In this document: one piece after another, positions 28,494 through 61,882 of the stretch
Layout: the number at the start of each line of letters is the position of its first letter
Position numbering within the stretch: the stretch's first letter is position 1
DNA from: Antedon mediterranea
Lineage: Eukaryota > Echinodermata > Crinoidea > Comatulida > Antedonidae
Length of the DNA stretch: 64,000 nt
Assembly (NCBI RefSeq): GCF_964355755.1
Contig: NC_092670.1
Coordinates: 16,119,201 to 16,183,200, forward strand
Direction: 5' to 3'
Made by a program: the position numbers and the translations under genes
The notes under the pieces: model-generated
Database searches by the model: none
Seen by the model: only the letters and a program-made list of their open reading frames with translations
Told to the model about the DNA's origin: nothing

Positions 28494-31400
28494 ATGAATG
28501 GAAGAAACGAAGTAACAGCGTTTACGATTGCCAATATTTTGGGTCTTAACTTTAACCACGAGAAAGAAGAGAAAAAAGTAAATAACTTGACAACTGCTGA
28601 AGATTCTAACTCAGAAGTTTCTTCACAGCAAAATGGTTTGTACATTTTCAAATTATTACTATTAGTACTATTACTACTATTTTTACTATTTTTACTGTTA
28701 ATTAGGAAATCCTAATTTTCTTTGAATTACTAATCCCCCGCTGTAACTTTGACAACTTTTATGTTGATTTTATTTATTCTATCTTGTGTTGGTAAACAAG
28801 CACTTACCGTAGCTAACTTAAGACAATCGTATACCATGGAAGTATATTACCAAAACAATGTTTAAACATTGACACACTTCTAAAGATTATATCATTATTC
28901 ACTTTTTAAACCGCTGAAAAAAAAAAAATTAATATATTCATTTTTCTTATCCGGATAACTAGAGACGCTATATAAATTAGGCCCTAATAATATCAGGGAG
29001 GTATAAATATAATTATTGTTATAACTTCCAGCTAATATCCTTTTTCGCTATGACAAAAATTGATTGAAATATTTAATATTTGTTGATGTCTAGCAAAATA
29101 TCAGTTTTAGGTAGTTATTATAGATGTGGACGGTAAGGCATTGAGACTGCACTTATTCAGAAATAGTCTACCAAATTATAAATTATTATTATACCTCCCA
29201 GCTAATCTTTTTTTGCCAAGACAAACATTGATTGAAAAATGTGTTGATGTCTAGCAAAACATTAGTTTTAGGCAGTATTATAAATGTTTTCAACGGTAAG
29301 ACGTTGAGACTGCACTTATTCAGAAATAGTCTACTAAATTAGAAAAAACAAGTGTGTCGCCCTCTCAACAAAATATCTACCAAACTTCAGAAAAAGTTAT
29401 AAAAGTACAATGTATTTCATATTTTTGTAAATTTACAATTTTCGAAAATTACAATAAATCGATGATTTTTACCGAATGTATTTCTAATTCCGTATTTAGA
29501 CATGGGATGCAAAACAAAGAGAAAAACGCGAAGGATGAGAGTGCGAACTAACTTTAGCTCATGGCAACTGGATGAGCTTGAGCAGGCGTTCGAGTCCACT
29601 CATTATCCAGACATATTTATGAGGGAGGCACTCGCTATGCGGCTGGATCTTATGGAAGCCAGAGTACAGGTAAATATTTTATTTTTTTATTTTTTTTATT
29701 TATTCATTTCCCAACCAACAGTGAGCTCATGGTTCACCACTTACAGGAGGGAACACAGACAAACACGAACATATACAATAACAAACATTAAACTAAACTA
29801 CTAACAATGTTACGAAACTTACGGAAATTATTACTAAAGATATCTAACTCAGGGTTTCTTAAAGTAAAAGAATTATAAAGTATATATGCAATATTGATAA
29901 CTGTATACATTAGTTTCTCCATTTATTTAATATTTCCACTTATTATATATTCTACTGATCTTGCTGCCATGTTTTGTCTATCCAATTTGTTAACCTTAGT
30001 TCTCTTAAATCGTTGAAACATAAACTGCTCATCTCATTTGTAACTAAAGAATAAATACAAAAAATAAACTTTCTTCATCAGTACTTGAAATTCCTGGGTG
30101 CAGGAACACTATTCAAACTCAATATAGGCCAAACGTTTCGATTTTACGTTCATTTGGATTTCGCGTAAAGACTGTAATTCTGTCTAAAAATAAATAAATG
30201 TCTTCATCAGTACTTTGAATGGATAACTAAAGTTGAGAGCAGGAAAGGTTTAGTCAAAGGCCTACTGTTTCGATTTTACGATCATTCGGTCATTAGTCTC
30301 GCGTAAAGACTGTAATTCTGTCTAAAAAATAAATAAAATAAATTTCTTCATAGTACTCTAAATGGATAACTAAGTTTTTTTGTATGCATAATCAACAATA
30401 TGTATATAAAGGTTAAAAGTGTAAAAATCCGAAATTAACAACAAAAATGAAATTTAACGTACGAAAATGAAATGTGAATTTAATACATATGGAAGATTGA
30501 ATGAATAAAGGTGGTAGTTAACCACAAACGAGAAAACAAAGTTGAGAACAGGAACGATTTAGTCAAACTCAGTATTGGCCTACTGTATCGATTACGATCA
30601 TTCAGGAAATGATCACGTAAAATACTCTAATTCTGAAAACTGAAGACGCATTGGTGGTGGTCTGAAAAGGGGTGGTACTGATATAGGTTACTTTAGAATA
30701 CTAGTAATTGCTTATTTGATACTTATGATGTCTCAGAAGACGGCCACTTTAACTCGTATATCTTGCCAATCAATAAAAACGAGACAGTATTGATAGCACA
30801 AATCATTTGTGCATTTCTTTTGTACGTAATGGAATGAGGAAATTAAAATGAATTAAAACTGTGAAAGATAAATACTGACTAAAATAATATTAGAAGATTT
30901 ACGATGATGTATGAGGACCGTGGGAAACATTGGATTAAAGAAAGCCAGCATAAAATATGTTTTGAATATCATTTGTATTTAAAAGTAACATTTCGCATTG
31001 CGTCTGCTTACAATACCAGATAAGGAAGGTCTGACTACAAAAAATCCTTGCAAATCTGATTCAAGAAACATTCAAGAAACATTTATTGACCAAAAATATT
31101 ATTCGCTGTAGTCCCTCTTTACATTATACAAATAATAATAATACAACACCTTACCTTAATTAGCCGTTACGTACATCATATAAATGAAAAAAAAAAAGAA
31201 TTCAGTATCTTAATTCATTAGGTTACCATCTGAGATATACATTAATAAAAGATATTCTTTAACGGACCTTTTTAAACTTTTGTCATGCACCATGTTTGGA
31301 ATTTTTAATTCCAAAGTTTAGGTCCATTTATATGAATAAAGTGTTAGTTTTAAGAAAGTTAGTCTTAAGAAAGGTACATTCATTGCATATTTGTATTTAA

Positions 31401-32874
31401 GATTGTGATAATTGTTTTCATGCTTACTAAAAATGTTTAGAACATATTGTGGTAACACACCACGCCTAACATTATCCATTATTATACGTAATACGCAGTT
31501 AAGCGCGCAGTGTACGTCATTAACGCGTTCGGTAATTACTGTTAGTTGTTCGTGTGAGCAGGATAAACTCGCATTCTTTTACCTGAGAACCACTTTAATG
31601 TAATTAATCATCGTCAGAAACAATTGGCCGTAGCTAAGTTGATCGAGTAATTTAGAGAAGTAGACGTGGCGATGCAATTGCTCCGTAATTCACATAAATA
31701 ATCAAAATTCTTTTATCTCCAATGTCTCACCTTAGCGCTTGCACATCGTGCGTCGCTAAATGCGTTCAGGGAACGACTCTACTCAAACACACCTGGTCGT
31801 TTAACGACAAGGCGCGGGCCCGTTTATTGGCCATCATTTGAGTTAATTTCACAAAATTAGTCAAAATAATTTGTCTTGTTTTCCCGGCTGATTTCATTAG
31901 ACGTGAAACTATAATGCAAGTCGGAACTTGTCAGTTTTGATAAATGTGTACTGGTTTGCTTTTACAAAAAGAGAAAGTGGACACGCGATCTCCAAACACG
32001 CAATCTAATCAAATAACGACTAACAATTTATTATTAGTTTGGTCAGTCCACCGATTAGAATGAAAACGAATATGAAGTTTGTTGATTACTATCTTGTTTA
32101 CTTGATGATTCCGCAATTTTTCTGTATCTGAAATTGAGGCTAAGCAAACATGATATAGGTTTTAGCGCCCTTCTGTGTATCCGATGTAGAGGTTTAGAAC
32201 TTTAGAGACCACACAAAAGCAGAACAGAACAGTGTTAATTCTATTTAACTCCAATAGAGAAATGTTTTTTGTGGGTGCAATTCAAGCTCATGGTGGGCAA
32301 CGTGACAATGACGTCATCTGAAGCTGTCTTCTTGTAGATATGTCTACATATGACTTACATAGCTAATAATATTATTATTATATTATTGTTATAGGTATGG
32401 TTTCAAAATCGTAGAGCAAAATGGCGAAAGCAAGAGAAAAATACATCTCATCCATTACCAAACGATTTTGCATCTAACAATGACGATCTATCTCCAACAA
32501 GTCTCCGGATGAGGCCTAGGCCATCCAGCAATAGTACGTCCAATCATTCAGGCCCGGTTGAGAACGACTGGTGTATCAAACAAGAACCCATACCATTTAT
32601 AAGCGTTGTACCACCTTCTTTACCACCTATGGTATCATGCCAAGATCTGCGGTTCCATCATACGCGTGCCAATATGTCTTACCCTGACATACAGGCCACC
32701 AGCATCTCGATGCTACGACAAAGAGCTATCGATCATGCAGCAGGGCTTAGGATGCTAGGCCTAGCTCCAGTATTTGATTGTGATAGGGGATTAACAACTA
32801 AAAAAAGTGTATTCATGGGTGATCACAAACCTCAAGCTTGCACCTATGTCGGTGGTGATGCTTTTTCGTACTAA
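28494..32874 (+). CDS. Unc-4/UNCX-like paired-class homeobox protein with eh1 and OAR motifs
   Basis: Predicted nuclear DNA-binding transcription factor. Exons: 28494-28635, 29500-29669, 32395-32874; phases join to 263 aa. Exon 1 carries the eh1 motif FTIANILGL (residues 10-18), a Groucho/TLE co-repressor ligand. The homeodomain (about 59-118) has Trp11 ([12 protein letters not shown]), [16 protein letters not shown] and Gln50 ([12 protein letters not shown]). Trp11 plus REALA are shared with UNCX and not with other paired-class families I know. An intron splits homeodomain residues 46 and 47. The C-terminal part has a sumoylation-type site IKQE (Lys about 166) and an OAR-like motif, [19 protein letters not shown] (about 208-226). 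The first donor (G|GTTTGT) is weak, so exon 1 is slightly less certain. It is a tandem paralog of the UNCX gene starting at 51121 and more diverged than that copy. Confidence 0.9.
29020..29340 (+). repeat. ~170-bp tandem duplication in Unc-4-like intron 1
   Basis: Copies at about 29020-29180 and 29195-29340 share CCAGCTAAT, TTGATGTCTAGCAAAA, TTTTAGG(T/C)AGT and GACTGCACTTATTCAGAAAT. The array ends 160 bp before the homeodomain exon. Confidence 0.85.
30074..30645 (+). repeat. Three-copy ~130-bp tandem repeat in Unc-4-like intron 2
   Basis: Copies start near 30074, 30199 and 30345, each with CTTCAT(CA)GTACT, AGGAAC or AGGAAAGG-type, ATTTTACGATCATT and TAAAGACTGTAATTCTGTCT blocks. The third copy is interrupted by about 160 bp (roughly 30377-30540) before resuming to about 30645. 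Confidence 0.75.
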
Positions 32875-33248
32875 GTGGAGACTATTGCAACTTTGTATAC
32901 TGTAGAGGGCGTCTTGTTTTGTAAAGATGTAGAGCTACAGTAGATACAACTATGAACAAGGAAATATAATATGTTTGTCCATGATACAATAGAGAACAAA
33001 TAAGTGTCTAGTACATTCAGTCAACATGTTTAAAATAATTATCATTATCTAGTCGATGGCATACGATTCAGAATATTAATAATTATGCAATAAGTGCCTT
33101 AGAATGAAACGTTAGGCCTACAAATAACATTGACCTAATGACATTATAATAGATAATTCTAGTTACATTTTAACTTATTTTATAGTATAATTAATGTTTT
33201 ATTATATATTTATATTATAAATAAGCACATAACCAGAATGTATTTATT

Positions 33249-33460
33249 CCAAGTCCTCGACGAAATAAACTATCAATATAGCGTCCCCATGCGACTGGTT
33301 ATCCCCAGACACTCCATCTTATATTATTTGCAGTTTCACAACAAGGTTCTTGACGAAATGAACTATCAATATAGCGTTCCCATGCGACTGGTTTTCCCCA
33401 GACTCTCTCCGACATTTGCAGTCAAATCAAGTTCTTGGCGAAATCAATTCATAATCACAT
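33249..33460 (+). repeat. ~98-bp tandem duplication downstream of the Unc-4-like gene
   Basis: GACGAAAT(A/G)AACTATCAATA then TAGCGT(C/T)CCCATGCGACTGG occurs twice about 98 bp apart, followed by a partial third unit (TTCTTGGCGAAATCAATT). The open frame across it is a by-product. Confidence 0.85.
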
Positions 33461-34053
33461 GCAATTGAACAATTCCAATATCAATTTAATGTATATATTT
33501 ATGAAAGTGTTATCAGTTCTCGCTAATTCTTGACACGATATACCCTCCAGCTATTTTCTCTTAAAACATTCATTTTCTTAAATCGTCTACGCTATTTACT
33601 TAATCGGATGATGAATGGGTAAGCCTAAGATAGTCGGATCAACGCGATGCGATATTTAATTTCACGGGACAGAAGCCTTCAAAAGCCGTCTAGAAAATTA
33701 TCAAATGAATATTACATGGGGGCCTGCGATGGATGACAGTCGATTTAATTACAATATCACGTGACATGTTTCACACAGTTTGAATTTTTGAGAGACATGA
33801 AGAGCCATTGTATAATGATTGTCTGCCTGTCAAACTATTCGGATTTTGTATCGATTAAAAGCCCAGGATGCGTGAAGCATATTTTCATGTTTATTGTACG
33901 TTATGATTTACAAACAAGAAAAGTAAATAATTATATATAGTTGATGATTTTCATGCTTTTATTGTTTATAACATTCTTCAGTTAGTTCCCTTACCTCCCT
34001 CTAATCACAAATATCGCCACCGAAACAGGCCTACAATATCTAACGCGTTTTAA

Positions 34054-34118
34054 AACCATTACCGATGCGTTTAGTGTAAACGCATTTAAAACTTCGTTTA
34101 AACGCATTGGTAATGGTT
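34054..34118. repeat. 20-bp inverted repeat (19/20 match)
   Basis: Arms 34054-34073 and 34099-34118 are separated by 25 nt and could form a hairpin. No terminator or RNA gene context was recognised. Confidence 0.75.
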
Positions 34119-34989
34119 GGCCTTGTAACTGATGACTTAATAATTCTCTCCAATAATAATTAAAAACAACAATTTAGACATTGATCGATAACCAATCTAA
34201 AATTTACGTTGTTTGTTCTTTCAAATTATTAAAATTATTAAAATTGCAATAGATTAAAAAAATAAAGAAATTCAATGAATGTACAAATGAACAAATATAT
34301 AAAAAAATAATCTCAATCGTTATTATAATAATTGGTTTGCGAATGTTATTAGAAAACGAAAGAGAATATTTTGAGACTAACGCAATTATGTTATAAAAGC
34401 TTCTAAGACTTAATACGATTACATATTTTAATGAAATTCATTAAAAACTATTTTGATAAGATTTGTTCCAGTATGGTTAAAACATGACGCTGTTGGTTCA
34501 TGTTTCTTTGTTTTAATAATTGCATTATCACTAAGTTCACATTATCGACATTGCTGCACGTCTTTTCACAACCTAATCCTTCTGTCTGTCTTACATATCC
34601 TTCAGTCTATTTCGGACTTAATGCTCCAAGATGAAACTAAGAAAAATAATACACAATACTAAAGTTAGATCGAAGGTCAGATTTATCATTTCTTAGAAAA
34701 CAAATCATCTTTATACTTTGACAATGAAAACTGAAATTCTCATTTTGCTAATGTGGCTTATATAATATTTACTTCAGTAACATCATTTATTACTGCAGTA
34801 ATCGATTCTTGGAGCAATCTGTACTGTAGTAATCATCAAGAACCGGCTGATCCAAGATTGGTCGATATGTTTCGTTGACATTACTGTGCTAATGGAATAC
34901 ACTCATGTAACTTTCTGTTTGCGTCAGTTGCTGTAGAAAACTTATTGCGTATACACCGCTGTGATGGCGCTAGTTACTCTTCATATGGC

Positions 34990-35054
34990 TCTGTTCGTTA
35001 TGCATCGTTAATTAATGGTTACGCGTAATAAATCAATCATGCATAACGAACAGA
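34990..35054. repeat. 16-bp perfect inverted repeat
   Basis: TCTGTTCGTTATGCAT (34990-35005) pairs with ATGCATAACGAACAGA (35039-35054) across a 33-nt spacer. It could be a tiny foldback remnant. Confidence 0.8.
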
Positions 35055-36652
35055 TACGGTATAGATGTGATTCCAATTGTTTATTGCGCGTACCGGTTGA
35101 TCGGCGTATGTAACAGACCATCGTTGTAAATAAACTTGCTATTATACTTATTTACTTGTGATTTATTTATTTGTACAGTACTTGACGTGAGAATACTTTA
35201 AACTAAAAAATAAATAAAGTAAACCTATCCACGGTGTGAAAGATTGATCGATATTTTCCAATTCTAGTTGAGTGACACAGCATAATATATTCTGCAGTGT
35301 GTTATCATTAAAAAACACATAATTCAGTAAATGTAACTCAATTATTTTTGAATTATGCTGTAGTTTTTTTAGAAATACTAAATGAATATTTTAAAACTAG
35401 TCTTGGGCATTTAGTTCTTAGGATGGCCGCAGGCACGAATACTTAATACAATGTACGGTACCAACATTATAAAAGAGAGGTGTTATTGAGCATAAGACTT
35501 ATTACTAGGATACACATGTCCATACTCATTAGTTAAAGTCAATTTATGGCACTATTTATTCAAATTAGAACGTTGGTAAATCGGTTAATGAAAAAGTAAA
35601 TTAATGGATTCGTTTGTAAATAGAAAAAACTGTTAACCTGGATGACACTTTATAATAAGTGTTTTCTTTTTGTTATCTAAAACAGTTACATTACATTTCA
35701 AGGTAGAGTCATCAGTTAATAAACCTATTTGTTGCTACTTCATAAATTCATACTTTTTATGGCTGTGTATTGTCTCTTTGTTTGGTATCTGATGTGTAGA
35801 TTTCAAAGTTTCCGGGTTCTTTAAAAACGAATCTTTAAAAATGGTTCAAATAATAAGGATCCGTATTAGTTAATAAATTAGAAAGTTGGTAAACGGCTAT
35901 ACGGTTTACCAAACTCCTTGATAACACTTTAGTAGCGCGAGCCTTCAAAAAACTGATACGAATGTTATGCGCGCGTAAACTTCACGTGGTGGCGGAATGT
36001 GTGCATGTGATGTTCCTAACTTTAATTAATTGTAATTAATTGTTTGTTAGATAATACAGTATAAAATTTACCTATATATTTACTTTTGTCGCGCGCGCGT
36101 GTTCAAAACATGATAAAAGTATGTACGCGCGGAAACTTGCTGGCTCTTTCGTGATGGTGTGTCAGTGACGAAATGTCTGTATCTTGTGATTATCTACTAA
36201 TAAATGATGTATTTCGTTTAATGCATATAGAATACCCTATACTATATTTAATAATTCCGTTCACTTGTCGTATGATATATTAGACTTCTTATTATTCAAT
36301 ATTGTGAAGATGATTGTATTTCTGTCATATTTTTACCATTTATCTTTATGTCAAAATATACCGATTAAGCTCCCATTGCAAGATTCTGCTCTAAATTTAG
36401 AAAATGTAGATTTTTTTTTGACAATTGTATTTTTTTAATCTAATTTTATCTAACTTGTTTAAGAATGTGTTAAAGTATGGAATAAAAGGATTGTTTAAAC
36501 TAGATAGATGTGATAGCTTTTTTAATACCAACCTTTTAAAGGGACTCGACAGCACATTTTTAGGCACAAAATTCGTTACCGTTTTTGTGTTTTTTTTTTG
36601 TGATGTCACAGCAGACCATACCGGTACACTACTGTAAACATCAACCTATTAA

Positions 36653-36771
36653 ACCTCTGTCTACACTACCAAACTAGTTTGACAAAAAAGTGTGATGTGC
36701 CCAAATATGGTAGTAAAAGACATCATCATGTCCATATATGGTAACATCACATTTTGATAGTGTAGACAGCC
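36653..36771. mobile_element. MITE family A, copy 2
   Basis: Termini ACCTCTGTCTACACTACCAA and GATAGTGTAGACAGCC; interior GTGTGATGTGCCCAAATATG and GACATCATCATGTCC. TTAA flanks both sides. Confidence 0.85.
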
Positions 36772-38440
36772 TTAAACAGTAGAACAAAGTCAAACTAAGC
36801 TTGATATTGATTACTGGTTACCTTAATTTGAGTTGTGACCCACCACATACTACTTTCAGAATTATTTACCTTCAGATTTTACCCTATATTTTTCTAGTTG
36901 TAACTGAGAAATGCGTGCACATCCTAAATGCCGATTTTTTACATTTTCGTTCTTGCCAATAAAGACGAAAGTGAATGTTGGTTATTTTGGATTAAAAGCT
37001 TTATTCGTCCAATTATGAATTTTATTTGTTGAAAGACCTTGTAACGATTTAAAAAACTAGCAATTTCCTTTGTTAAGTGCAACTTAGCAGATTATAACTA
37101 ATTAACAATATGACCTAATGCCTATAATAACAGATCATAACATTTAAAATAGTGTAGACCACCACAATTTTTCAGAGATTCACACTTTACATGTTGTGTA
37201 CAAATACATCATCAATATATCTGTTTCTTAATTATTTAATTCATTGGAGTAAGAGCAGTTTTCTGTTTGGGCTCATGCCTACTTGCTCCTGGCAAGATGA
37301 AATGTAAAACGTACTTTTAAGAACTTTTACCGAATAAATATTATTATTATCATTATTATTGAAACCAAATTAATATTTATTTTGTGTACCCTATAATTTA
37401 TAGAAAGTTTAGCTACCGTTGTACTACAATTTTTCAGTTAGGCCTACAGGGTGTACGTCATAAAATGATAATGCACGCATGCGCACCTTGCAGGCGCTTG
37501 TTCAAACGATGATGATAGACTAAATGTACGCGGATTTAAACTTTGCCTTGTGCCTCGTATTGTCACTGAAAACTATTCCAAGCGGAACATTTCTTATTCA
37601 GTTTTATTTGTATCATTTTTGTAAACGACAGGAAGTAATTACGTCAGTTGGTAATTATACCGGTTGAACAGGTTAACGCGCGCGTAACTGATAATTCGTT
37701 GACAATTTAGCATTTGAGTGTTCTGATTGGTTTAAATATCCATTAGATTTGTTTGTTTTCTAAATGTGTGAAATGGTGCCATTAATACTGTAATACACTC
37801 GGCAATTTAGAAATTAGCGTTTGCTAAATAACCACTCATTAAATAATGCAAAATGATTAGCGCTTCTACCATATTGTAGCGAGTTGAATTAGCTTAAGCT
37901 GTAATCGGCGACAATATCGTCACACCAATAGTAATCGGGTGTCTTTAAGTAGGCCTAACACAGCTGCGAACAGTTGTTCAAGACGCAGTTAGACCTGGTC
38001 TTTCCCCGGGGAGTTTCAAGACTCTCGCGTCGTATGGGAGGCCTGAGAGAGGCTCACACATAAGGCTTTAGATGATCCGCTATCTAGTGAAAATGGTGTT
38101 GTTATTGCTAACAGGCATCTATTTCTTGTATTAAATGTACGTGTTATATAGATACCATATAGCGAAAATGGATGTTGTAGGCTATGAATTGCTCGTAAAG
38201 GAAGACTTTTCCTCTCAACGAATCGTTCCGGTCAGAAAACAAATTGACTTGAATATTGTACGCTTGAGATTTCTTAAACTAATATCAACTCAACAAACAA
38301 ACAAATGGGAAACGGTTGTTGTCTGAAAAATATTAAGCTTAACAGTGTAATTATGTCACAATGTGTACTGTTTTTGATAAAACATAATTGCAGAGGCTGC
38401 CATCTTTCTTGAAATGGTTGTTACGTCCGAGTACCGTTAC

Positions 38441-38646
38441 CAGTGGCGTAACGGCTATGAGCGTTCATTGGCTAAACCCAGGGGCCCGGAGCTTATGAGG
38501 CCCCATGAGCAGTGCCCAGAGGAAAAAAGCAGGCATTTACTCGTGCCGAAAAGGCTTAAAAACGCCCGAGGCCTCCAGCGTTGGAACTTGGAGGGCCACT
38601 TAGGTTTCTTAAACCAGGGGTCTCAGGCCTCTGCGTTACGCCACTG
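38441..38646. mobile_element. hAT-type MITE with perfect 8-bp target duplication
   Basis: A 206-bp element with 13-bp inverted termini CAGTGGCGTAACG / CGTTACGCCACTG, flanked by ACCGTTAC at 38433-38440 and 38647-38654. An 8-bp duplication and CAG...CTG ends are typical of hAT transposons. It is much more GC-rich than its surroundings and non-coding; the open frame through it is incidental. Confidence 0.92.
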
Positions 38647-39170
38647 ACCGTTACGTTAAACGTACGACGTAGAACATACGTATCGATACCTTAACTGAAA
38701 AAAACACCAATCCAATGTCACCTTAATTGCATATACGCAGTGATAACCCAACATTTATGACTTACGAAGCTTCCTCGTGAACCCTGGTCAGCAATGACGA
38801 TATTAAAACAATTGAATTAACAGTATATACTTAATATATTTTCGTGTCGCTTCATTGAATTATTATTATTAATTATAAGCGTGAAAAGCATTTACCATGT
38901 GTCTAATCTAGCTCCGCAATCATGTTTATTGATACCATTACTCTGAAGACTATTACACCTTGTTTATTAATGAAACATTGTATCAAAAACGTGCACACAC
39001 CATTGACGTTTTATGCGTTTTCCATGTGTTAGTAAGATTATTAATAAAACAATTGTTATTGATTACTTTAGAGTGACAGATTTGATTGGGAATTGGTAAT
39101 CGATATAACAGTCAATGACAGGACGTACAATATAAACCGGACCATGACAAAGCGCCACACGAGAGGACGT

Positions 39171-39285
39171 CTTGAAGCTGACGTCCTGGAAGCCTTGAAG
39201 CTGACGTCCTGGGAGCCTTGTAGCTGACGTCCTGGACGTCTTGAAGCTGACGTCCTGGACGTCTTGAAGCTGACGTCCTGGACGT
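39171..39285. repeat. 23-bp minisatellite, 5 copies
   Basis: Units CTTGAAGCTGACGTCCTGG plus AAGC, GAGC or ACGT, repeated five times exactly (39171, 39194, 39217, 39240, 39263). Units contain the palindrome GACGTC, and later units have it twice in near succession. Confidence 0.95.
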
Positions 39286-39617
39286 CGTAGAGTTACATCC
39301 GGGTATTATACGTACCTGGATGCGATCCGCCATTGTTGCAGGTAACTTTACATCTCACATTGTTACTGTCGTATATTTAATAAATTCAAAGACAAATTAC
39401 TGAAAATAATGACAATGCTGTGGGTATCAGTGGCTGGATCTCAATGGAGATTACAAAATAAAATAAGCAAAAAGCTAAATCAAAACGATAAAGTAAAATA
39501 GCCATAAAAAGTAGCAGAGCATTCGAGCAAGTGAGAGTACTTAGAAAAAATAGATAGTATTAAGCAGACAAGCGCTGCCTGAGTGGACTGGAATAAAGGA
39601 AATATAAACATATATTT

Positions 39618-39640
39618 AATATATATATATATATATAATA
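39618..39640. repeat. (TA)n microsatellite
   Basis: A short AT dinucleotide run in the homeobox intergenic spacer. Confidence 0.8.
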
Positions 39641-40084
39641 TACTAATAATTAATCCAAAGGTAGCTGATATTATAGGTGTACTTCTTCGTGTCAACAGTA
39701 CACTCGACGGGTTAATAATATTTTACTGCTAATTTCAACTAAATATGTTTAAACACTCAGAATTATTTGATACCTTTTTATAGTTCAAAATACTTTTTCC
39801 TAAATAATAACCGTGAAACAGTTATTAAAGATAATGAATGAGAGGTTGTCATTTCAATTTAAAAGTTGGTCGCGTGGAACCCGAAAGACACGCGACGTTA
39901 TCAGTGATTGTCTATGGAAAGCCAAACATCACTTGCATTTCTCCATTTGGCGTGTCGTACTTAATAGGTACGGTCGTTTATAACGCAAGAAGTTTTCAAG
40001 TTGTAATATTTCATTCACATGGATACTATAGACTTTCTATGTCGGTTATTACAATATAGTTAACACTGTAGTAACATAGACTTA

Positions 40085-40216
40085 AGCTCTGTCTACACTA
40101 TCAAACTAGAAAAAGTGTGATGTGCCCAAATATGTTAGTGATATGACATCATCATATCCATAAATGAGCACATCACATGTGTTTGCCACATAAAGTTTGA
40201 TAGTGTAGACAGAGCT
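40085..40216. mobile_element. MITE family A, copy 3 (intact termini, TTA target duplication)
   Basis: Starts AGCTCTGTCTACACTATCAA and ends TTTGATAGTGTAGACAGAGCT. It is flanked by TTA at 40082-40084 and 40217-40219, the 3-bp duplication typical of PIF/Harbinger elements. Confidence 0.9.
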
Positions 40217-45860: not shown

Positions 45861-45864
<4 letters not shown>

Positions 45865-45892: not shown

Positions 45893-45895
<3 letters not shown>

Positions 45896-47453: not shown

Positions 47454-47841
47454 TATCGTAACGGCAGCAGACGGTACATATCGTAACGGCAGCAGACGGT
47501 AGTCGTCGTAACTGCAGACGGTAGTCGTCGTAACTGCAGACGGTAGTCGTCGTAACGGTAGATTGTAGTCGTCGTAACTGCAGACGGTAGTCGTCGTAAG
47601 GGCAGACGGTAGTCGTCGTAACTGCAGACGGTAGTCGTCGTAACGGCAGACGGTAGTCGTCGTAACGGCAGACGGTAGTCGTCGTAACGGCAGACAGTAA
47701 ACGTCGTAACGGCAGACGGTAGTCGTCGTAACGGCAGACGGTAGTCGTCGTAACGGCAGACGGTAGTCGTCGTAACGGCAGACGGTAGTCGTCGTAACGG
47801 CAGACGGTAGTCGTCGTAACGGCAGACGGTAGTCGTCGTAA
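47454..47841. repeat. 22-bp minisatellite, ~16-17 copies
   Basis: Tandem units of CGGTAGTCGTCGTAACGGCAGA and single-base variants (ACTGCAGA, AGGGCAGA), preceded by two slightly longer units (AACGGCAGCAGACGGTA). The long minus-strand frame across it exists only because the units lack stops in all frames; the encoded 22-residue repeat is not taken as a protein. Confidence 0.95.
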
Positions 47842-47889
47842 CTTTAGAACTTGTTGGTAGTTTACACAATTATACTTTGTAGCAATAAT

Positions 47890-48435
47890 CGTGTGATAGT
47901 CATCGTGTGATAGTCATCGTGTGATAGTCATCGTGTGATAGTCATCGTGTGATAGTCATCGTGTGATAGTCATCGTGTGATAGTCATCGTGTGATAGTCA
48001 TCGTGTGATAGTCATCGTGTGATAGTCGTCGTGTGATAGTCGTCGTGTGATAGTCGTCGTGTGATAGTCGTCGTGTGATAGTCGTCGTGTGATAGTCGTC
48101 GTGTGATAGTCGTCGTGTGATAGTCATCGTGTGATAGTCGTCGTGTGATAGTCGTCGTGTGATAGTCGTCGTGTGATAGTCGTCGTGTGATAGTCGTCGT
48201 GTGATAGTCGTCGTGTGATAGTCGTCGTGTGATAGTCGTCGTGTGATAGTCATCGTGTGATAGTCGTCGTGTGATAGTCGTCGTGTGATAGTCGTCGTGT
48301 GATAGTCGTCGTGTGATAGTCGTCGTGTGATAGTCATCGTGTGATAGTCATCGTGTGATAGTCATCGTGTGATAGTCATCGTGTGATAGTCATCGTGTGA
48401 TAGTCATCGTGTGATAGTCATCGTGTGATAGTCAT
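47890..48435. repeat. 14-bp minisatellite, 39 exact-length copies
   Basis: Thirty-nine units of GTGTGATAGTCRTC with one variable base (A or G). Reading that base by unit gives 9 A, 7 G, A, 8 G, A, 5 G, 8 A. It is 49 bp from the 22-bp array and shares the decamer TAGTCGTCGT with it. No unit length change was found. Confidence 0.97.
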
Positions 48436-49487
48436 CGCTTGCTGGTGTTTGCGGTATTCTGCTCTGATAATTAGACTGTAAACTGTAATCATAAAATAAA
48501 ATGTCGCGTCTTGTTTTTTCCCTTTTTTTCTGTGACTGTTTAAGATTTCAGAAATATATTAAAACCCTTTGTATGCAATAATTTCAAGGTTAAACCTTTT
48601 CCCCAACTAAAAATTATTGTAACATCGTGCCGTGTCTTGGAAGAAAAATGGTTTAAAACTACCGCACACAGAATAATTTTGGAGTTTTTGTTTAATAATA
48701 ACGCAACAAAAAAAATATTGCAAAAAATGCGATATAAAAATGTATATAATGTAGGCAAACCTTTAATCATTTCTTTTTATTATTATTGTTGTAAAATTTC
48801 TTTTATATTTCTCTCAATATTCAATGATGTCAAATATATCTATATATGAGTAAGGAGCTAACTTACGATAAAGTAATCAAATACAAATATGTGTGTATAG
48901 GCCTAAATATTATAAAATATAACAATGATATTTCTTTATGTCCAGTTTAATAGTGTGATACAAATTGCAATGGAAAAAATAATACAAAACATATTATTTA
49001 TAAAATCATTTATTATGCCGACGATCTCTTTTTAAATCATCAAATACTGTTTTCAATAACTCCATAAAAAAGCATTTCAATTCTCGTACGTGAAATGAGG
49101 ACGACACTGGAGAACATAAAAGCAGAGTAGTCGTAAAAGATACTAAAACAGTAATCAAAAGTAAATAAGAATAACACTTGAGCAGTTTTTTATTCTATAA
49201 ATTGATAAATCACTGCTGTTTTTTAATCAAAACGTTGCTTTTTATTGCTAGATTTATTCCTTTTTATCTAATTCAATATACTTTTGGAACGAGGCTAATA
49301 AATATATTTTTATTATTTACGTCAGCGAATGCAAACGTGTATTTTAACTACGATGATGAAAAGTATTTTTAATAATTATATTTCTAATAATTCTCAAATA
49401 AGCAAATAAGAAGGATGGTTAAGTTAAAAATACTTAGGCCTACTTCTATAAATTTTAATTATTTTTTATAAATTTAATAATATTTTC

Positions 49488-49818
49488 AAAAGATATTGCC
49501 CCCCTTTTTATTCAAATTTGTTTGTTGAATATGTCATTTTGATGTTACAGATAGTTATTCACTTACTGGATCGAAAAAAAATTGTTTTCTGGAAAAAACT
49601 GTAACTAAAAGCAAAAAATAATTAAATTGACTGCCATCCAATGGATTTTTGGTTGAATTTAACCGTTTTGTTTATTATATAAGTGAAAACATTCTTTTTT
49701 CTCGTTATTTTTTTCTGCGGAAGTGATTAACTTTATTAAAACTACAAAATGGCCTATTCAAAATCTGATTTTATTAATCTTGATTTTTCATTTTTTTGGG
49801 AGGACAAGGCATCTTTAA
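49488..49818 (-). mobile_element. MITE family B, copy 4
   Basis: Starts AAAGATATTGCCCCCC and ends GAGGACAAGGCATCTTTAA; the interior matches 26699-27063 in reverse orientation (GTGATTAACTTTATTAAAAC and CTTGATTTTTCAT blocks). Confidence 0.75.
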
Positions 49819-50492
49819 AAAACAAATATTAAATAATGATGCATTATTTGTTGTGTTTATTTTTCGTCAGTGACACCATGAAGAACAACGTAATTTGATG
49901 CTGATACGTATGCCTTATTTTTTGTTTTTAATTTAAAATATGTACGTTTTTTAACGTTTTGAATTCCTTAATTTTTTTAAAGGAAAAAAAATTAAGTAAA
50001 CTAAAATGAAAAATTATAACTAAATTAATCAATCAATCACAATATTTATTTTTTCCTTTCTCTGGGCCTACATTTAAAATGTTTTTATTGTTCGAAAAAA
50101 GAATAACAAATGTACATTATAATCTATAATTATAGTCTTCTTTAGTTTATACTGAACATTGCAGGAAACAAAAAATAACAAAATAACGATGAACAAGAAA
50201 AAATATTACAAAAAACAATAAAAAGTCACTTCGACTAAATTAAAAATACGATGTTTAATAATATTATATTACTGTATTTTATAAAATATGCAGAAAGAAT
50301 TATTATCGCTATTAACAAGTCGATTTTATAGACTCCCTCTGTGTACACAATATATTAAAACACTTCTGTCGTTTCCTGTCTTGTGGCAAATGGTATTATT
50401 ATTATTACGTGTATTATTACTTATATTACTGGTGGTATTATGCTGTTCATTTTACGCTAAATGCGCTCGCAAACAAAACACAATTATCCAGT

Positions 50493-50548
50493 ACCGCCCC
50501 GTTTAACGCTGATTTTACACACCTTTTGTGTTATGCACACGGGGCGGT
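50493..50548. promoter_or_regulatory. GC-rich perfect inverted repeat upstream of UNCX
   Basis: ACCGCCCCGT (50493-50502) and ACGGGGCGGT (50539-50548) form a perfect 10-bp inverted repeat 570 bp before the UNCX start codon. They look like paired GC/Sp-type boxes or a cruciform. A reverse CCAAT (GATTGG near 50715) and a CTCCTCCCC block follow. The promoter role is inferred. Confidence 0.4.
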
Positions 50549-51120
50549 CTGGACATAATCTTAACTTTCTGGCTCACTTCACTCATTTCTGTTACCGTTC
50601 ACACGTATAAAAACACAGTAATATGCGCTTACATTTTGTACTTCTTTTATGCTTATCTAAACTCATTCAACAAATGAAATCAAGCTAAACCAAACATGGC
50701 TAATAAGCTAATCTGATTGGTCGCCTGATTGCTTGTGTCTCCTCCCCTTTGACCTGTAAAGAGGCATCACCGAATGACTTGGTAGCTAAGCGAGTACGAT
50801 AATTGGGTATCAAACAAGAGTGTTGGATGTTATTATATTTAATGTAAATTGCTAAAAGCAATATTATTCGATAACTCTTTTATCTGGTGTAAACACATCT
50901 CGTTTGTAGCAGATTCTCCTGTCAGTTTGTCTGTACTGACCAAATCACGCTTGAGACAAAACTGGAAAACCCACTCTAAGTTTAACCACACCGGTGCTTA
51001 AAAACTGGATAACAATTCATTTATATTCTCTAATGCAGCTTACTTGATATTTAGAAAGCACAAGTTTTTATTTATTTCTATATACTGATTTTTGTCAACA
51101 TTGCTAAGCCTGCAAACGGA

Positions 51121-54100
51121 ATGATGGACGCGGTCCTAGACTCAATCTACCCGCGATTTATGTCCCGTCTTGCCATCCCAAACTATCCATTTGCCCCACA
51201 TCTACTAGGCCTACCGCCTAGGGGCTACCTCGAGAATCCGTTCCACAACCTACACCCTAACTCTTTAGCACTCCGGCAACTAGAAGGATTTCCTGGACTT
51301 GTCGGCAAACCGGATGCCATCGCTAGTCCTACGAATTCAGATGCGAGAAGTGATGATGACTGTCGATCTGGTAAGTAAAGAATTACTTTATCATAATTTT
51401 GATAATTAATAAATTAATATTTATTATTAGCCGGTTGATGTATCATTATTAATTATTACTGTTTTAAATAAATATGTTAAGTTACAAAGTACTTTTTTTT
51501 CGCCAAAACTCAAGTAGAACATTTTTTTTTTAGATTACCATTAGTATTTAGAGATGGCATCAATGTAATATCGTTATAGAAATGCTTAGTTTGTTTTCAT
51601 TTCTTTTGCCTTACGCTTTGAAATATGTTTTGTTACTCACATAAGTTAATGTAGTTAATAAAGTATAGATACGTGTTACAAAAGATAGCATTTGTATAGG
51701 ATTTTAATATTAGTGATTAATAGATCCATAGCTCATCCTTTAAACTTGTTTAGATTGTTAAAAGTTGATTTACTGTATAAACGGTATGAGGAATACAATG
51801 GGTACACTACTCACAATTTTATTTAACGATTGTGTTAACAAACATCCGATTAACATCGAGCTTGTAGAGAATTATATTTTTTAACTTTGTGTTGGGCCTA
51901 TTGTTGCAGTCAGTTTATATGTTTTATTTTATAAGTACATTTGATTGTAACAGTGAATTATTCGTTGGTCTATCAGGAGATAAAACCTTGGAACAACGCA
52001 ATTTAATTTAGGTCTAAAACACTTTTCGCAAACTATATCTTTCCAGTCGTCCTATACGGAGCAATGTTTGGTCTATCTGTAGTAGAGTAACAATCATTTT
52101 GTAGGTTAAGAATATACCAATAATATGCGTCTAATCGGAAATTTGCTTTGGACAAATTTCTGAAAAATGTAACTAGTTAGAGTATAGTGGACTACCTTAG
52201 TAATACAAATATGTTTTCTATATTGTACACAACTTCTGTAATTTACTTCATTTGGCGTAATAGAGAAAATGTCCTTTTATTTTAATAAAAATGACAGTCA
52301 TATTCAATTTATATTCTAATTCAACTGCAAGCATTAAGTAAATAAAATAGATATTTTAGTCATACATTGGAAATTGGAACATTAAGGTTTTGTGGCATAT
52401 TGAACGAATTCCATTTAATACATATGACATGATACATTTGCAACCAATTCTCGTTGACAAATAATCCATATAGCAGTTACGACCAGCGGATCTTAGACAT
52501 TGAATTATGGCCTCTGGTGAAATCAATCTAACTATTTACTGTGAAAATCACCCGATTTTGTGCACTGTATCTCCATAATATATGACTTTATCTGTCCAGT
52601 ATCGTAGGCAAATTCTGAAGTACAGTGTCACATATGTATCACATGTTATGGTTAAACTTATGATATGATGGTATGAGTTATGATACAGGCGTTATATAGG
52701 CCTATTTTATTACAGAAATTGCGTATGATGTACAGGGCAAATTATTATAGATAGGCTGAGAAATACTGAAAAGTTGGTATTTTTCTATATTGTATTCCAT
52801 TATTATACACAACCATGATTGATAAAAGCACGTTACTTGAAGGATATGTATTATTGTCATACGCTAATATGTATTGTTTGACGTCGAATACCATAACTTA
52901 ATATGGCCAGATACCCTGGTGGCGATTATTTCTGGGTAGTGAGTTTAAAAGCACAATAAGGGGAAATTTAATTCCGCTGCTATACCTAACTCTTGTATAG
53001 TATAGCGTACCGTACTGTAGCAAAAGATCGATGCCTCATACATTGTGTTCGTCAACTTTTTATGAACTTCTATTAACCAATGTTAGAAAATTACGATACT
53101 TAGGTCTATCTTATTGACTGCTTAGGTGTTAATTATATAATGTAAAAATAAACAACAAATAATATAAAGAGCAAGTTTCACTATAACACTTTTTTTTGTA
53201 AATTATTACGTTAGAATTAAGTTTTTTTTAAATAGTGGGAAATTGCTTCTTCTATAATATTAAAACATGTTATCGGTTTATCCTAATGCTCTGTCTAGGC
53301 CTACAATATCAAACTAGTTTGATAAAAATAATGTGATGCGCTCAAATATGATATGACATCACCATGTCCATATGGGCACATCACATTTACACACAAAGTT
53401 TGATAATGTAGACAAGGCTTTAGATAACCAAACTGTGAATTCACCTTTAACTGGATAACCGTATTAAAACCATTTTCTACCTTCGGGTTAACCGTCAAAG
53501 ACCAATCTCAAGTCTTTGCATATTGCAAGGAAAATGTATTTAGAATGAAGGATAACTAGATGTACAACCTTTTACTTATTCATTTATTTATTGAAAAGGA
53601 ATTAATTACATTTACCTGAGTATTAGACGGCTTACAAAACATGCGTCCCTGATATATCTAGATTATTTGACTTTTGGCGTCTCTTACCGACTATTTCACC
53701 GAAATATTTTAATCAGTAAAACTGGACATATTTACGATAAATTGGATTTACTAAATTTATTTATTTATGCAATGACTCGTATTGTTTTTTCAAGCATATT
53801 TAGGTCTTAATGCGTGTACAGGATTTAGCGAACGATACGACGCTAAGTGATATTCGAACGGCGCGCGATCCGGTGCAATAGCACAAAATAAAATCTACCG
53901 GAATTGAATTTTATCCAGAAGGATTTAAAACCGCTTTTGTTAATGTAAACATCTACGTACTAAATGATATTGGATAAGATGCGTGGTGTTAGAACAGGGC
54001 AACGCCGTGGGAGCTCGTTAACAATTACGGGAACGCGTTGCAACAACGTGTTGCCAACGGCCACAACAATATTTTTATTTGGAATAAATTCCCGTGTGAT

Positions 54101-57100
54101 TGTTTCTTGTAATATTCTATTTCTAACGATTTAGATCATTTTGTATCTTGCTGTGTCGTCATGCTCTTTTGCAAAATTGGTAACAAAGAGAAAAATTCCG
54201 TTAAAGATATTAAAATTGGAAACTGCAAAACTTAATTTATTATAAACAAAACCCGACAATGATTTTGACACTTTATGTAACTTGTTAAAACCATTTTAAT
54301 ATTTTGATTCGTGTGAATCTTCATTTTGATGTTTTTTATTTTGCTGTACAGTTGATATATGTTTCTCCTAAGGAAGGTGAATAAATTCGAATTTGAAGAC
54401 ACCATACAGTTAAAAAAAAATAGGATAATTATTGTTCATAAAACCAAATATCTTTGAGTAATACAAATAAATGTAATAGTAATAGATTACGTAATGCAAC
54501 AACAGCACAAAACAAAAGGTCTGAAAATATATTGTTAAAACCTTAAAAGATTATCATTTTGTCACAACGAAATACTCACTATACTTTATAATTGTATTTA
54601 TTGCTTGCAATTTTAAAGCATGTTCTAGCATGGAGATTCACAATAAAATCTTATTATTAAATAAACTATAATTAAATAATAGTTATTCCCAGTATATTTC
54701 TCACATACTGCCACGTGTAATGATGCTGATAGATACGTTAATTGAGAAAAAGTATGATTAAATCTTTAGCCCATTGACTGCGTGTAACATTCACTGAACC
54801 ACTTCGGTGTAACTGGATAATTTATTGCTAAATTCCCTTTGGTTGAAGAAGAATATCGCTACCTTGATGAATCATATATATGTGAACATAGAAAGTAATT
54901 TAAACCCTAATACTTTGATGGAAATTAAATATATAATACTCGTTTATTTAATTATGAATATCGCCATTTGATCCCACTCGTGACAGTTATTAAATATATA
55001 TAAGTCCGTGTGTTTTGGTTTATTTAATTATGCATAGGCATATCGTCATGTTTTGTCCACGGGCATGTTAAGGGATAATGTCGCCTTTTGTCATAAAGGT
55101 GAAAGATAATTACGTTGTTACTGTTAAATTCACAAGTATAGTAAAGCCGGGTGCATGCCCGAATATTAAGATATGACGTCATAAAATATTTGTGTGCGCG
55201 CGTGTTGAATTGATTATTTTTACAATTATAAATCTCGCGCGGTTTCAAATTTAATGTCTTCTTTTTTAAACTAAGATGGTCCAATGTAATATTTGCATCA
55301 TTATGTCGTTAAAGCATTGGTTCATGCGAAATAGCATTCATTATTAAAGGTGTCATTTTAGAATTTTGATATTCATTGTTAAAACAATATTCCAGTATCG
55401 TAAATTAAATTTCTAATTTATTTTGCTTAAATTTAATAACTTACTACCAAATGACAAATAATGTTATGGTATTATAGTTTGTCTTCTAATAATTATATTA
55501 GTGCGCATTCAACGCGTACTTTGATTCGATGACGTATAACTAACTTAATTGAAGTCGTCTGCTCGGACGCGCCACTCGTGATAATTTGATTGAATGGCCA
55601 TTTGATTAGGTTGGCCAAGTACCTATTAATTTCTCATTAACAAATGAATGTCCACTTTCAGGTCTTGGTTTTAACGTATATATGGTAATTATTTTAACAA
55701 TTACCTTTTATCTTTAAAAATGAGAAAATAAAATATAAACAATTATATTAAAAATGCAATTCTCTGTAGTCAATAATATCGGACAATTGATTTCGAATTT
55801 TTGAATGTTTGTATAGAATACAAAAATAAAATTTGACTGGTTTACAGGGTATTTGCTAACACATAATTTTATAAATTATTATTTTATAGATTTGTCTTAT
55901 TCTACTTTTTTATATACTACTTCTACTTCTTTTAATAACATACAGCAAAGTTAGTAGATGGTAAAGTATACATCTATAAATAATATTTCTTCAAGACTCT
56001 GTTTATGTTACATGAGTCATAAAGTAATACAAACGCTATATTTCATACTTTGATAATTATTTGGGGTTTAGGCGTCAGATAGTGGAAAATTAGAAGTTAT
56101 AAAAATTTAATTGAAACGATAATTTTGCGATTAATTATGAATAACAAATTGATAACCATAAAGTTTAATTTATAGAGGGTTTTGACAAGATGATCATCTA
56201 GTTCCGTTTTCATTAAACACATTGCAAATTAAAGATTTAAATCGGTTATCGCACATTTATCATTCTCAGTGAAATTTAAAGCTAAAAAAAATATATGTAT
56301 ATTGTGATGCAATTATATTTTGGAATAATTTAGGCAGAAATATTGCTGTTTTGCGGCGATCAAAATAGTTTTGTTCAAATTAAATATGTTTTATTCGGAA
56401 AGTACAGTACAGATTCTCTTTTTATTTATTATTTTCATTTTTTTACCAGTAGTACTTCTGTCTTTAGTGGTCTAACTAAATGAAATACAACAAATGAGAA
56501 AATATTGAAAATAAAATGTGAACCAAACACAACGTGCATATTTATAACTTTGGACGAACAGATGAAAGACAAATTAAACAATGTAAACAAAGGAAAACTA
56601 TTTTCCCATTGACCACATTTATCAGATAAAAGCATTTTACATTGATCTAAGTTAGATTCAGATTTTTATTTTTTCCTAGACGGACTCTAAAGCTTGTTTA
56701 GAAACAATTTTATATTCGCACAAGTTCCAACATTCGCGATATTATTATTTTTATTATTGAATGTTATACCAACGGGAATCATGAAATGTGCGAGGCTTTC
56801 ATATTTATGTTTTAAAGAATAAAGTTTTATCCTTGCTATAACATTGACATTATTTCCAAATAGAAATCTCTATTGTATAGAAAGGTCATACAGATCATAA
56901 CCAATCATTTCACAAGCATATACCGAGAATACTAAAGTCATAGAGTTCATGATGCCTTGTATTAAAGTTAGTGATACATAGGCATTATACTATATTTCTC
57001 CTATGACAATTATCTATGAACCCAAATATCAATATGCATACCCATCTAGAGTTATGATGGTGGTAATTGTTAATCTACTAGTGATGATTTGGATTTTCTT

Positions 57101-60100
57101 TTCAAGTAACTTTAACTTAACAGTATAATTTAAAGTTGCATGTTAATGTATATTATTAGGTACTTCTTATTAAGAAGTTATGAGTTTTTCTGGTGGAACG
57201 TAATTGCTTATTTCGCCAGCAAGAAACTGTTGCTATTTACCGTATTATTTGTCGAGTGTATCAATTTTTTTTCTTGTGAAAATTAATTAAAATTGAATTC
57301 AGTTGAAAACAAGATTAAACCCTAATTAGGCCCTTTTTAAATTTAAGTAAATAAATTTTGTTTTTATAGTGCTTATTGTGAATAGTTTGGTTTCTTTTCA
57401 ATTTCTTCAGTCGTATAGCTCATTTATGATTTCATTTTGTTCATCCTCCCTCGGCAGGTTAACCGTAGTTTGTCTTCATAAAACACATGAAAACTATCAT
57501 TAAATGTTGCAACGTATAGTATCATCGAATGTTGATTTCAGTTAGAAAATAGTAATTAATTTTATGTGAAAATGGTGTATACGATTTCGCTAGGAATTAT
57601 CTTCCGAAAGGCTTGGTAAATCAAGAAGAACAGGCAAATTATAAATAATACGATAGATCGTAAAATCCCAGCTAAGTCTATAAAAGATGAAGTGAAATCA
57701 AGATAGAGTTTCGTTTACTATTGAAATTCTACCTAACTTAGCTCGTAAAAATATAATATGTGATTATTCTGGACGGAATTTAAACTAACACTTTTGATGT
57801 TTCTAACTGATTGAATTGGATTGATATTAAGACTTACTCCTCTCGCGATATAAGCAGTCTCCGAGTGTCAAATGCGGCCAAAACTAGTGCGCATTGTGCC
57901 AGTCTTTTGTTACAACCCTTGTCGTAAAACACTGTTGTTACTTCGCCAAGATGCGTTTCGCTGAGCGTGTCCATCGTCGGTAACTGTCAGTTTTGTTTTT
58001 ATTAACTCATCTGATTAAAGTATAGACAAAAAAGAACATTTAATAAATGAAATATTAAAATGTAATAATTACGTAACTTGTTTTAAAATATAAATATTAA
58101 GAATTGGTCTACGAATAAAAAAAATACACTATTTTAGGCATATTTTATTGTTATTATTTCTATTATTTTATTTAGTAAATACGTACTTATTATTTAGTTA
58201 TATTATTTATTTTCAATCTTTGTACATATCGATACGAAATATAGTTTTAACATATAAATAAATATATGAAAAAGACAAAAACTGTGTGATGCTTAACCAC
58301 TTATTTAAATTCTTAACGAAATCGCAACAATAAAGTTGTTTCCTTATTGAAAATAAATGGAAAGCAAACTTGTTTACAAAAAATATCAGAATGTTTACGA
58401 CATATTTGAACCGTATTAGTAAACTCCTTGCCCCTAATAGATTCGTGTCTTTGATTAGACCAGATGCTTTACATCACGACCACTTTCTTTCTATTTACCC
58501 ATATTAGAGTATCGCTTACAAAGGAGTCGTGTTATTATCGATATTCATAAACTCCAATAATAAAGACAGTTTATTTTGTTTTTAACAATTATGTAGATAT
58601 GTAGCTATCTTGTATTCAATCCTAAACAGATTGGTCAGATCAGGGAGAAATAAGTCTATACTTAACAAAACAATTACCGTTGCGTAACAATCTCTTTCGC
58701 CACATGCTAAGTTGCATACTAATATTTTAATTAGCATTTTATTAATTAGTATCGAATTAATTTGCATTCAATGCATCTTTAAAACATGTTTAGCATTTTT
58801 TGCAATTAACCTATGAATAAGTTAAGGCCGTAGTCCTCTTAAGATGAACATACTGGTATTAATTATAACTGTAACATTATCAATACACCGTTGAACAATG
58901 AAGTACCGGTAGGTCTATTGTTGTTCAATACAAATAAATTAAATTTCTTTTGTAATTCCGATGGGTTGTTATTCTAATATAGCAAGTGCTAATATTTATT
59001 AATCGTTGTAACCTCTTGTTAATTCTCTATTCTGTTCATAGGCTTTGCAAGTATTAGAAATATCTAACTATTGTTAGATAACTAATCCACAGTACTATCA
59101 TATTATTCTTAGTGCACTGTATCGTTGCTATTATAGCTAGCTAAGCCATTTGGTATATTTCTAGGGTACCGTACACCTTGACTAAGGGGTGGACAACGTG
59201 CGCCTGTTCGCCCACCATGTAATATCGGCGGTATTTTTCTTGGATCTTCTTCCATAGCCTTGGTATATACTATGAAGTTACATTTCTACTCCTTTGTAGA
59301 AAAACACCTACTGCTCATCCTCTTTTGATATCGCCGAATAGATTTTGTGAAAGACATATCAATTCTTAAAATCCATTAAATAGCTATTACCATTTCATTT
59401 GTATTTCCTTGAAACAATTACATAACAGGCGTCATATAAGCAATAAGTGTGATTTAGTTAAATAAGTTAATTAATATAAATAAACATTTAAATTAAACCA
59501 AATAGAGTATCCCAAAACACGTTGTAGTAGACCCGCTGAATAAGAATGTGTTGTTTGGGATTGTTCAAAAGGGCTCTACTTCGTAGGATATGTTTCCATC
59601 TCATGACAAGTATCATCCACATGGTATCGGTACGATACGCGGTCACGTGTTCACCAATTACAGTACACATTTGGGAAATAGATTATTCTTTTAGTAAAGT
59701 TATACTTTAATTATTATCATAGCAGTTTTAATTAATATTCAGTAATTGAGTCATATAAAAACACTACGTGATATTGTAAGGTTTTTTTCGTTGCCTAGTG
59801 GAATATTTTTAAACTTCATCTTTCAAAGTGTATGACGTAATCAGGTGACGTAATTTCCCGAGGTACTATTTCTCAATTCAGTGTATTAAGTTGTTCTTTA
59901 TTCATATTTTGTCTCCTACTGGCAACTGTAGATGAATCCATTAACCGTTATATAAGCTATTCTAGTTACTTTTTTTTATCCAATTCTCTTCACACTTTCT
60001 TTATGAATGTTATTTTCATTTTATCTTCTATCCATCCATCCACTCATTTCATCGTTCATTCCTTCCTTACATTTCTAATTTGTTTATATTTCTCGAAACA

Positions 60101-61882
60101 ATTCAACAAAGTACAAAATAAATCTAAGCCTTAATTTTTTCAGGATTGTTTTATCTTTTTGTATTTTCTTTTTCTGTTCGAACAAACAGTGTCTTATTGA
60201 AATATCCTTTATTTTCCCATATCTATAAATTTTACTGCTTATTATCATATACGTTTCACACTAACGTGTAATGATTTATAGTCAAGTTGCTGGTAACATC
60301 TCCAAGGAACGCTGGTGATAGAATAGATACAAGAGAAGATAGTATAATAGCACTTCAAACAAATCATATCATCATCATCTTAAAGGGAGTGTTCACACGG
60401 TGTATAAAGAGTTACGCCAAAATACGCCTATATTTAAATTGGCGCGTGCACACGATATTGCACGCAACGTAACGCTATTAAAGCAAAGCGCGTATAGTTT
60501 TTCTTAGGCTGTCCACACGTATGGTACCATAACCTCAAGTTCAATGTAAACATTTATTTTCTTTCTTTCATCTTTCATAAACAATTACAAAATATAAATG
60601 AATAAGGTACTACTTAAATAAGGTAGGTAGTATTGAAATTCGTAGAACCTGTTTAGGTTTAGTTGCCAAAATATATGTATTAAGAAAGAACATTTATAAC
60701 GCTAGGATAGTTTGTTGAATGCGTCAAATTATTCGACAAAAGACCACAAATTGCGGTTTGACAACATTAAGTGTTCCTGTGTCAATCACAGCCAACAAAG
60801 ACCTGGTTATAATTAGCTTCATTCCACCTTGCTTGCATAACTATAATAGTTATTTGGTTAAATGCATTATATTTGTTATTCAATTACCATAGTTTCTTGA
60901 TATCGGTTTCGCAACCACCCTACGTAATGATAATAAACTCAGTCTCGTAGGCTAGCTTTTCACTGTCAGTCCGTCGGGCTAACCAACAAACTAGATGTAT
61001 GTGTGGTCGTTGCGATACGGTAATCATTAACCATTTAGGCTTGTTTTCCACAAGATGTAATACTGAATCCGTGTTTTCACTGACCGTAACTATGGTGTGT
61101 CCGTATCATTTTTTCTCGTGTCCGCACACATTTTATTTCGTAGTCATCGCTTGTAATGCGCATGCTCGTAGCTATTGCGATCAACACTTTAATGGTTTTC
61201 TGAGTCTGTGATGTTGATTTTCCATAATGAACTAATTTCACTGTTGTTTACCGAGACGGTGTATTGTTTTGATGTATTTCAATCGTGTTTAGAATTAAAC
61301 TTGATTAATTTTGTTTTGATGAAGCATCGAATTCTCATTATTAAATTGAATGGATTTTCTGGGTCGAGATTAATTATCTTATTAGACATAGTTTAATCGT
61401 AATGAATAATATTAGTAGATGTTGAAAAACAGTTTGTTAGAATAGATGGTAAAACTGATTGTGTTGTTTTAGTTTTCCATTATTGTGTTATGAGTAAACA
61501 AAATTACGGTAGCACATTTCTTAAATTACTCATATCATAAATCATATAAGTGTTTGGGTGCTTGGTTCGGGATTATTACAAATAAGATAGGACAGAGATT
61601 TATTTAATATTGTTAATTTCAGGTGTAGGCGTTTTGATTGTTTTGTTTCAATTGATGACCAAATAGTATAAAATTAATAACACTATATTATAATAAGCCT
61701 TTTGTCACTTAGATATCGATGATAAAGATGGAAATGGCGGGAAAAGACGACGCAGTCGAACTAATTTTACTGGCTGGCAATTGGAGGAGCTTGAACGCGC
61801 GTTCACAGAGAGCCACTACCCGGATGTGTTTACGCGTGAAGCTTTAGCTATGCGCCTTGACCTCGTTGAATCACGTGTACAA
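51121..61882 (+). CDS. UNCX: UNCX (Unc-4 homeobox), exons 1-2; 3' part beyond window
   Basis: Paired-class homeodomain transcription factor; in other animals the family patterns segments/somites and specifies neurons. Exon 1 is 51121-51370 (83 codons plus 1 nt) and exon 2 is 61713-61882 (170 nt). The joined frame gives CRSD then [20 protein letters not shown]. The homeodomain part, with [30 protein letters not shown] and VESRVQ, is nearly the vertebrate UNCX sequence up to residue 46. The intron then follows at the canonical 46/47 position, so residues 47-60 and the C-terminus are outside. The start is the first of two adjacent ATGs, as in vertebrate UNCX (Met-Met-Asp). Exon 1 has only a degenerate eh1-like FAPHLLGL (24-31). 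Intron 1 is 10.3 kb. No exon 3 was found before 64000. Confidence 0.93.
51371..61712 (+). other. UNCX intron 1 (10.3 kb)
   Basis: It runs from a consensus donor (G|GTAAGT) to the acceptor GTCACTTAG. It holds one MITE family A copy (53287-53419). The rest is AT-rich, stop-rich and without recognised exons or RNA genes. Short, highly AT intervals are common. Long first introns of developmental homeobox genes often carry enhancers, but none can be identified from sequence alone. Confidence 0.7.
53287..53419. mobile_element. MITE family A, copy 7 (UNCX intron 1)
   Basis: Left end GCTCTGTCTAGG with a TAGGCCTA-containing variation, then AATATCAAACTAGTTTGA; right end AGTTTGATAATGTAGACAAGGCT followed by TTA. 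The interior has ATGGGCACATCACATT. Confidence 0.82.

Follow-up and report, generated by a model that had tools for sequence, protein, structure and literature searches.

A tandem pair of Unc-4-family homeobox genes in Antedon mediterranea: a canonical Uncx and, most likely, an old diverged paralogue

Pairs of Uncx genes that share a chromosomal region have been reported in Drosophila melanogaster, Capitella teleta and Saccoglossus kowalevskii. Alx flanks the pair in the annelid and the hemichordate but no longer does so in Drosophila, and the family has conserved intron positions (PMC6543554). The pair in flies, unc-4 and OdsH, arose within Drosophilinae some 62 million years ago (PMC10917504). 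UNC-4 works with UNC-37 in motor neurons of Caenorhabditis elegans (PMC1310626, PMC8363302). In C. elegans and Drosophila, unc-4 proteins interact with the co-repressor Groucho through an eh1 motif at the C-terminus, which OdsH also keeps. In mouse Uncx, eh1 motifs are found on both sides of the homeodomain, and the N-terminal one was presumably lost in fly and worm (Copley, PMC1310626).

In this study, we analyzed a stretch of 64,000 nucleotides (hereafter, the window) on contig C1 of the crinoid Antedon mediterranea, together with homeodomain exons elsewhere in the same genome. As in S. kowalevskii and C. teleta, whose second copies were compared by description, two Unc-4-family genes with the conserved intron positions of the family lie in one region of an invertebrate chromosome. 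Alx linkage of the kind seen in the annelid and the hemichordate is absent here: both Alx genes are on C7, whereas the pair is on C1. Since such pairs have been reported in fly, Capitella and Saccoglossus, the present one adds a further lineage to a known phenomenon. New here are an N-terminal eh1 in gene 1, a C-terminal eh1 in gene 2 and weak OAR-like tails in both. We consider it quite probable that gene 2 is a canonical Uncx, that gene 1 is its paralogue through an old tandem duplication, and that the two encode putative eh1/Groucho repressors. The exons of the two genes are as follows (window positions unless a contig is given).

Gene 1, exon 1: 28494..28635, + strand, 142 nt; ATG and an eh1-like FTIANILGL at aa 10-18.
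Gene 1, exon 2: 29500..29669, + strand, 170 nt; homeodomain residues 1-46 with Trp11 and REALA (match at C1:16148738).
Gene 1, exon 3: 32395..32874, + strand, 480 nt; homeodomain residues 47-60, C-terminal region and an OAR-like segment at aa 207-218.
Gene 2, exon 1: 51121..51370, + strand, 250 nt; begins MMDAVLDS.
Gene 2, exon 2: 61713..61882, + strand, 170 nt; homeodomain residues 1-46 with Trp11 and REALA (match at C1:16180948).
Gene 2, exon 3: C1:16189380-16190195, equivalent to window positions 70180-70995, + strand; about 6.2 kb past the window end.

An earlier, sequence-only reading had proposed exons, frames and splice phases for these genes, and all of them were re-derived. Gene 2 does not end at 61882: exon 3 was located when a further 9.8 kb of contig past the window were read, and it completes a protein of 411 aa. 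Spliced from its three exons, gene 1 encodes a complete protein of 263 aa with zero internal stops. The homeodomain was recognized by Pfam in both products (PF00046, 5e-23 for gene 1; 4e-23 for gene 2), and a paired domain was found by Pfam in neither. Both genes have WFQN with Gln50 and the 46/47 intron, and they belong by these features to the PRD-type (PRD-LIKE) class. All splice sites are GT-AG. The sole weak donor is GTTTGT after exon 1 of gene 1, and the N-terminus of this protein is for that reason a prediction only; the frame of this exon is open, with an in-frame stop upstream and without an earlier ATG.

The weak donor, and a homeodomain branch longer in gene 1 (0.18 vs 0.065), are what might be expected if gene 1 were a decaying or unexpressed copy. 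Such a pseudogene is very improbable, however, as all three exons have stayed open despite saturated synonymous sites, exon 3 holds an open frame of 159 codons (about 4e-6 by chance at the local base composition), and the core residues of the homeodomain, WFQNRRAKW and the eh1 motif are intact.

Gene 2 has the character of a canonical Unc-4/Uncx gene, judging by its homeodomain, its GPGRPAHN...TCSG.PI stretch and its C-terminal eh1, the same three parts in which it resembles vertebrate Uncx (Uncx4.1). Its homeodomain is identical at 54/59 positions to a provisional reference sequence of a vertebrate UNCX. After the homeodomain, exon 3 encodes TKKGPGRPAHNAHPTTCSGDPI, a stretch of the TKKGPGRPAHN...TCSG.PI type that is presumably specific to Unc-4/Uncx proteins. 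No second exon with a similar stretch was found anywhere in the genome. As exon 3 of gene 1 was likewise found to lack it, we refer to gene 1 as a diverged Unc-4 paralogue and not as a canonical Uncx.

Kinship of the two genes is indicated by several features. Both homeodomains have the Unc-4-type residues Trp11, Asn7 and REALA; the presence of Trp11 and REALA in each had been claimed before, and these occur in 0/60 other homeodomain exons read from the genome. The two homeodomains are identical at 45/59 positions, and the next best full-length match of gene 1 is Drgx (42/59). Drgx is as similar to gene 2 as gene 1 is (46/59), and Hbn matches gene 2 at 45/59. A tree of the PRD-type homeodomains of the genome unites genes 1 and 2 (91/86, or 93/87 with completed homeodomains), although the homeodomain is short, at 59 columns. 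No Unc-4 homeodomain peptides were found in the full text of papers. With two provisional reference Unc-4 homeodomains, from fly and vertebrate, gene 1 fell inside the Unc-4 clade (90/91). In AU tests, placement of gene 1 with Drgx was rejected (p 0.006), and placements with Shox (p 0.43), Otp (0.30), Phox2 (0.19), Prrx (0.18) and also Hbn were not.

These unrejected placements, together with the missing post-homeodomain stretch, raise the question of whether gene 1 belongs to another PRD-type family and merely lies beside Uncx. Candidates would be a Shox/Otp-like family or the echinoderm phb/pmar1 group, a distinct PRD-like class which, set beside gene 1 by description, is similar in its homeodomain, its tandem duplication and the eh1 of Pmar1 members (PMC4709884). 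We find this unlikely. Gene 1 has Unc-4-type residues and shares Trp11 and REALA only with Uncx in this genome; in Shox here, position 11 is Glu and helix 3 contains a Cys (RRAKCRK); the best tree unites the two genes; and gene 1 stands head-to-tail with Uncx, with a 170-nt exon of equal length.

Their arrangement supports the same grouping. The two genes lie on the + strand, with gene 1 placed 18 kb upstream, and no other homeodomain match was seen for several Mb around them on C1. Chance adjacency is therefore unlikely, and tandem duplication is the simplest explanation. A search of the genome for a third Unc-4 copy found none. A duplication with one conservative and one diverged copy, as the sequence-only reading had put it, is thus supported at moderate strength by residues, adjacency and tree, and gene 1 is most likely a diverged paralogue of gene 2 that arose by old tandem duplication.

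Other features of the window were recorded. Between the homeobox genes, at 47492-48437, are two minisatellite arrays (22-bp x16 and 14-bp x39, 94-98% matches). At 5499-9008, on the + strand, exons of a GH18 chitinase precede an exon that encodes five CBM_14 chitin-binding domains. An open frame of 212 codons at 12663-13301 has no Pfam match; judged by eye, it resembles the end of a non-LTR reverse transcriptase.

The shared intron layout, which had been offered as an argument for duplication, carries less weight than it seemed to. The layout itself is real: in each gene a phase-1 intron leaves a G that completes an Asp codon (G+AC and G+AT), exon 2 is 170 nt long, and the second intron falls at homeodomain codons 46/47. 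We compared it with the 60 further homeodomain exons of the same genome, with family names given from reading the sequences. Nearly all PRD-type genes proved to share both features, a 46/47 intron and, ahead of the homeodomain, a good phase-1 acceptor, so this layout, common to the class, is weak evidence for close kinship, and we dropped it as a proof. What remains informative is the exact length of the exon. The homeodomain exon is 230 nt in Shox, 224 in Pitx, 254 in Otp, 236 in Hbn, 260 in Rax, 206 in Phox2 and 176 in both Dmbx genes. Exactly 170 nt is common only to genes 1 and 2, with a possible, uncertain acceptor for this length in Prrx. As evidence of kinship, we give this length modest weight.

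The survey also brought up other groups of PRD-type exons. Homeodomain exons of Otp, Rax and Hbn (named by eye) lie within 60 kb at C11:8545031-8604924, where the ancient HRO cluster looks intact. Two Dmbx-type genes, at C6:10086206 and C6:10115064, are 29 kb apart on opposite strands, each with its 176-nt homeodomain exon. Nearly identical, divergent PRD-type exons at C7:28975243 and C7:28987087, 12 kb apart, represent a duplication far younger than that of the Unc-4 genes and are a possible candidate of the phb/pmar1 type. An Arx-like exon at C5:21763292 has a stop in frame after FTR and may hold an extra intron inside the homeodomain. A COX1 gene was also looked for and is absent from the assembly.

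Each protein has one strict eh1 match, and these are at opposite ends. In gene 1, it is N-terminal, FTIANILGL at aa 10 (23/50000 shuffles were as strict); in gene 2, it is C-terminal, FSIDRILAT at aa 308-316 (46/50000 shuffles). In addition, PFAPHLLGL in gene 2 is a possible degenerate remnant of an N-terminal eh1. Mouse Uncx has both motifs, so each copy looks like the keeper of one ancestral docking site. The diverged copy here differs in this respect from OdsH, which has the C-terminal motif. The split looks like complementary loss after duplication, although two proteins are too few to prove it; of the ancestral repressor machinery, each copy seems to have retained a different end. Both genes would encode Q50 PRD-type homeodomain repressors acting at TAAT-type sites. 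Groucho is predicted to be bound and recruited through the N-terminal eh1 by the product of gene 1 and through the C-terminal eh1 by that of gene 2.

The C-terminal tails were examined for an OAR motif. OAR (PF03826) was not detected by Pfam on the tail of either protein. A model made from 11 OAR motifs of the same genome scored 11.3 bits on the tail of gene 2 and 5.4 bits on that of gene 1, weak values that rank with about the best few of 5000 shuffles. Both tails are putative degenerate OARs, which would suggest that the common ancestor of genes 1 and 2 also had this motif. Vertebrate Uncx is not known to have an OAR.

The duplication appears to be old. The two homeodomains encode the same residue at 45 codons; 21 of these codons are identical, compared with 19.8 expected under full randomization of synonymous sites. 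Synonymous sites are thus saturated, which makes the event old and sets no upper limit on its age. Alignment between the two loci is confined to the homeodomain portions of exons 2 and 3, and their noncoding DNA cannot be aligned. The parallel with Drosophila unc-4/OdsH, drawn in the sequence-only reading, holds for the layout: both are adjacent pairs of a conservative and a faster copy, with exon 1 non-homologous between copies. It does not extend to age, as OdsH dates back some 62 million years and occurs in Drosophilinae only, whereas the pair examined here is saturated.

Whether the pair is restricted to its own lineage, as unc-4/OdsH is, or is more ancient is a question within the preferred explanation of an old tandem duplication. 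We give a lineage-restricted event a nearly even chance. Uncx duplications in unrelated invertebrates have been read as local events (PMC6543554), and a clade of genes 1 and 2 that excludes the fly and vertebrate Unc-4 survives the AU test (p 0.11). Saturation excludes a recent event, however, and in the tree with the provisional references gene 1 is sister to the remaining Unc-4 genes, which group without it (93/77), possibly an artefact of its fast evolution. This tree weakly prefers a split that would predate the divergence of fly and vertebrate Unc-4.

Going further, the pair might be ancestral to Bilateria, and gene 1 might stand for a further Unc-4 paralogue group that has mostly escaped notice and was retained beside Uncx in some invertebrates, with the eh1 docking sites divided between an N-terminal and a C-terminal copy. 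We regard this as a tentative and rather doubtful extension. If the pair is old, it would be a case in which tandem copies of a transcription factor divide two short co-repressor motifs that are joined on one protein elsewhere. It would also bear on how the Unc-4 pairs of fly, annelid and hemichordate are to be read, as one ancestral pair or as several duplications.
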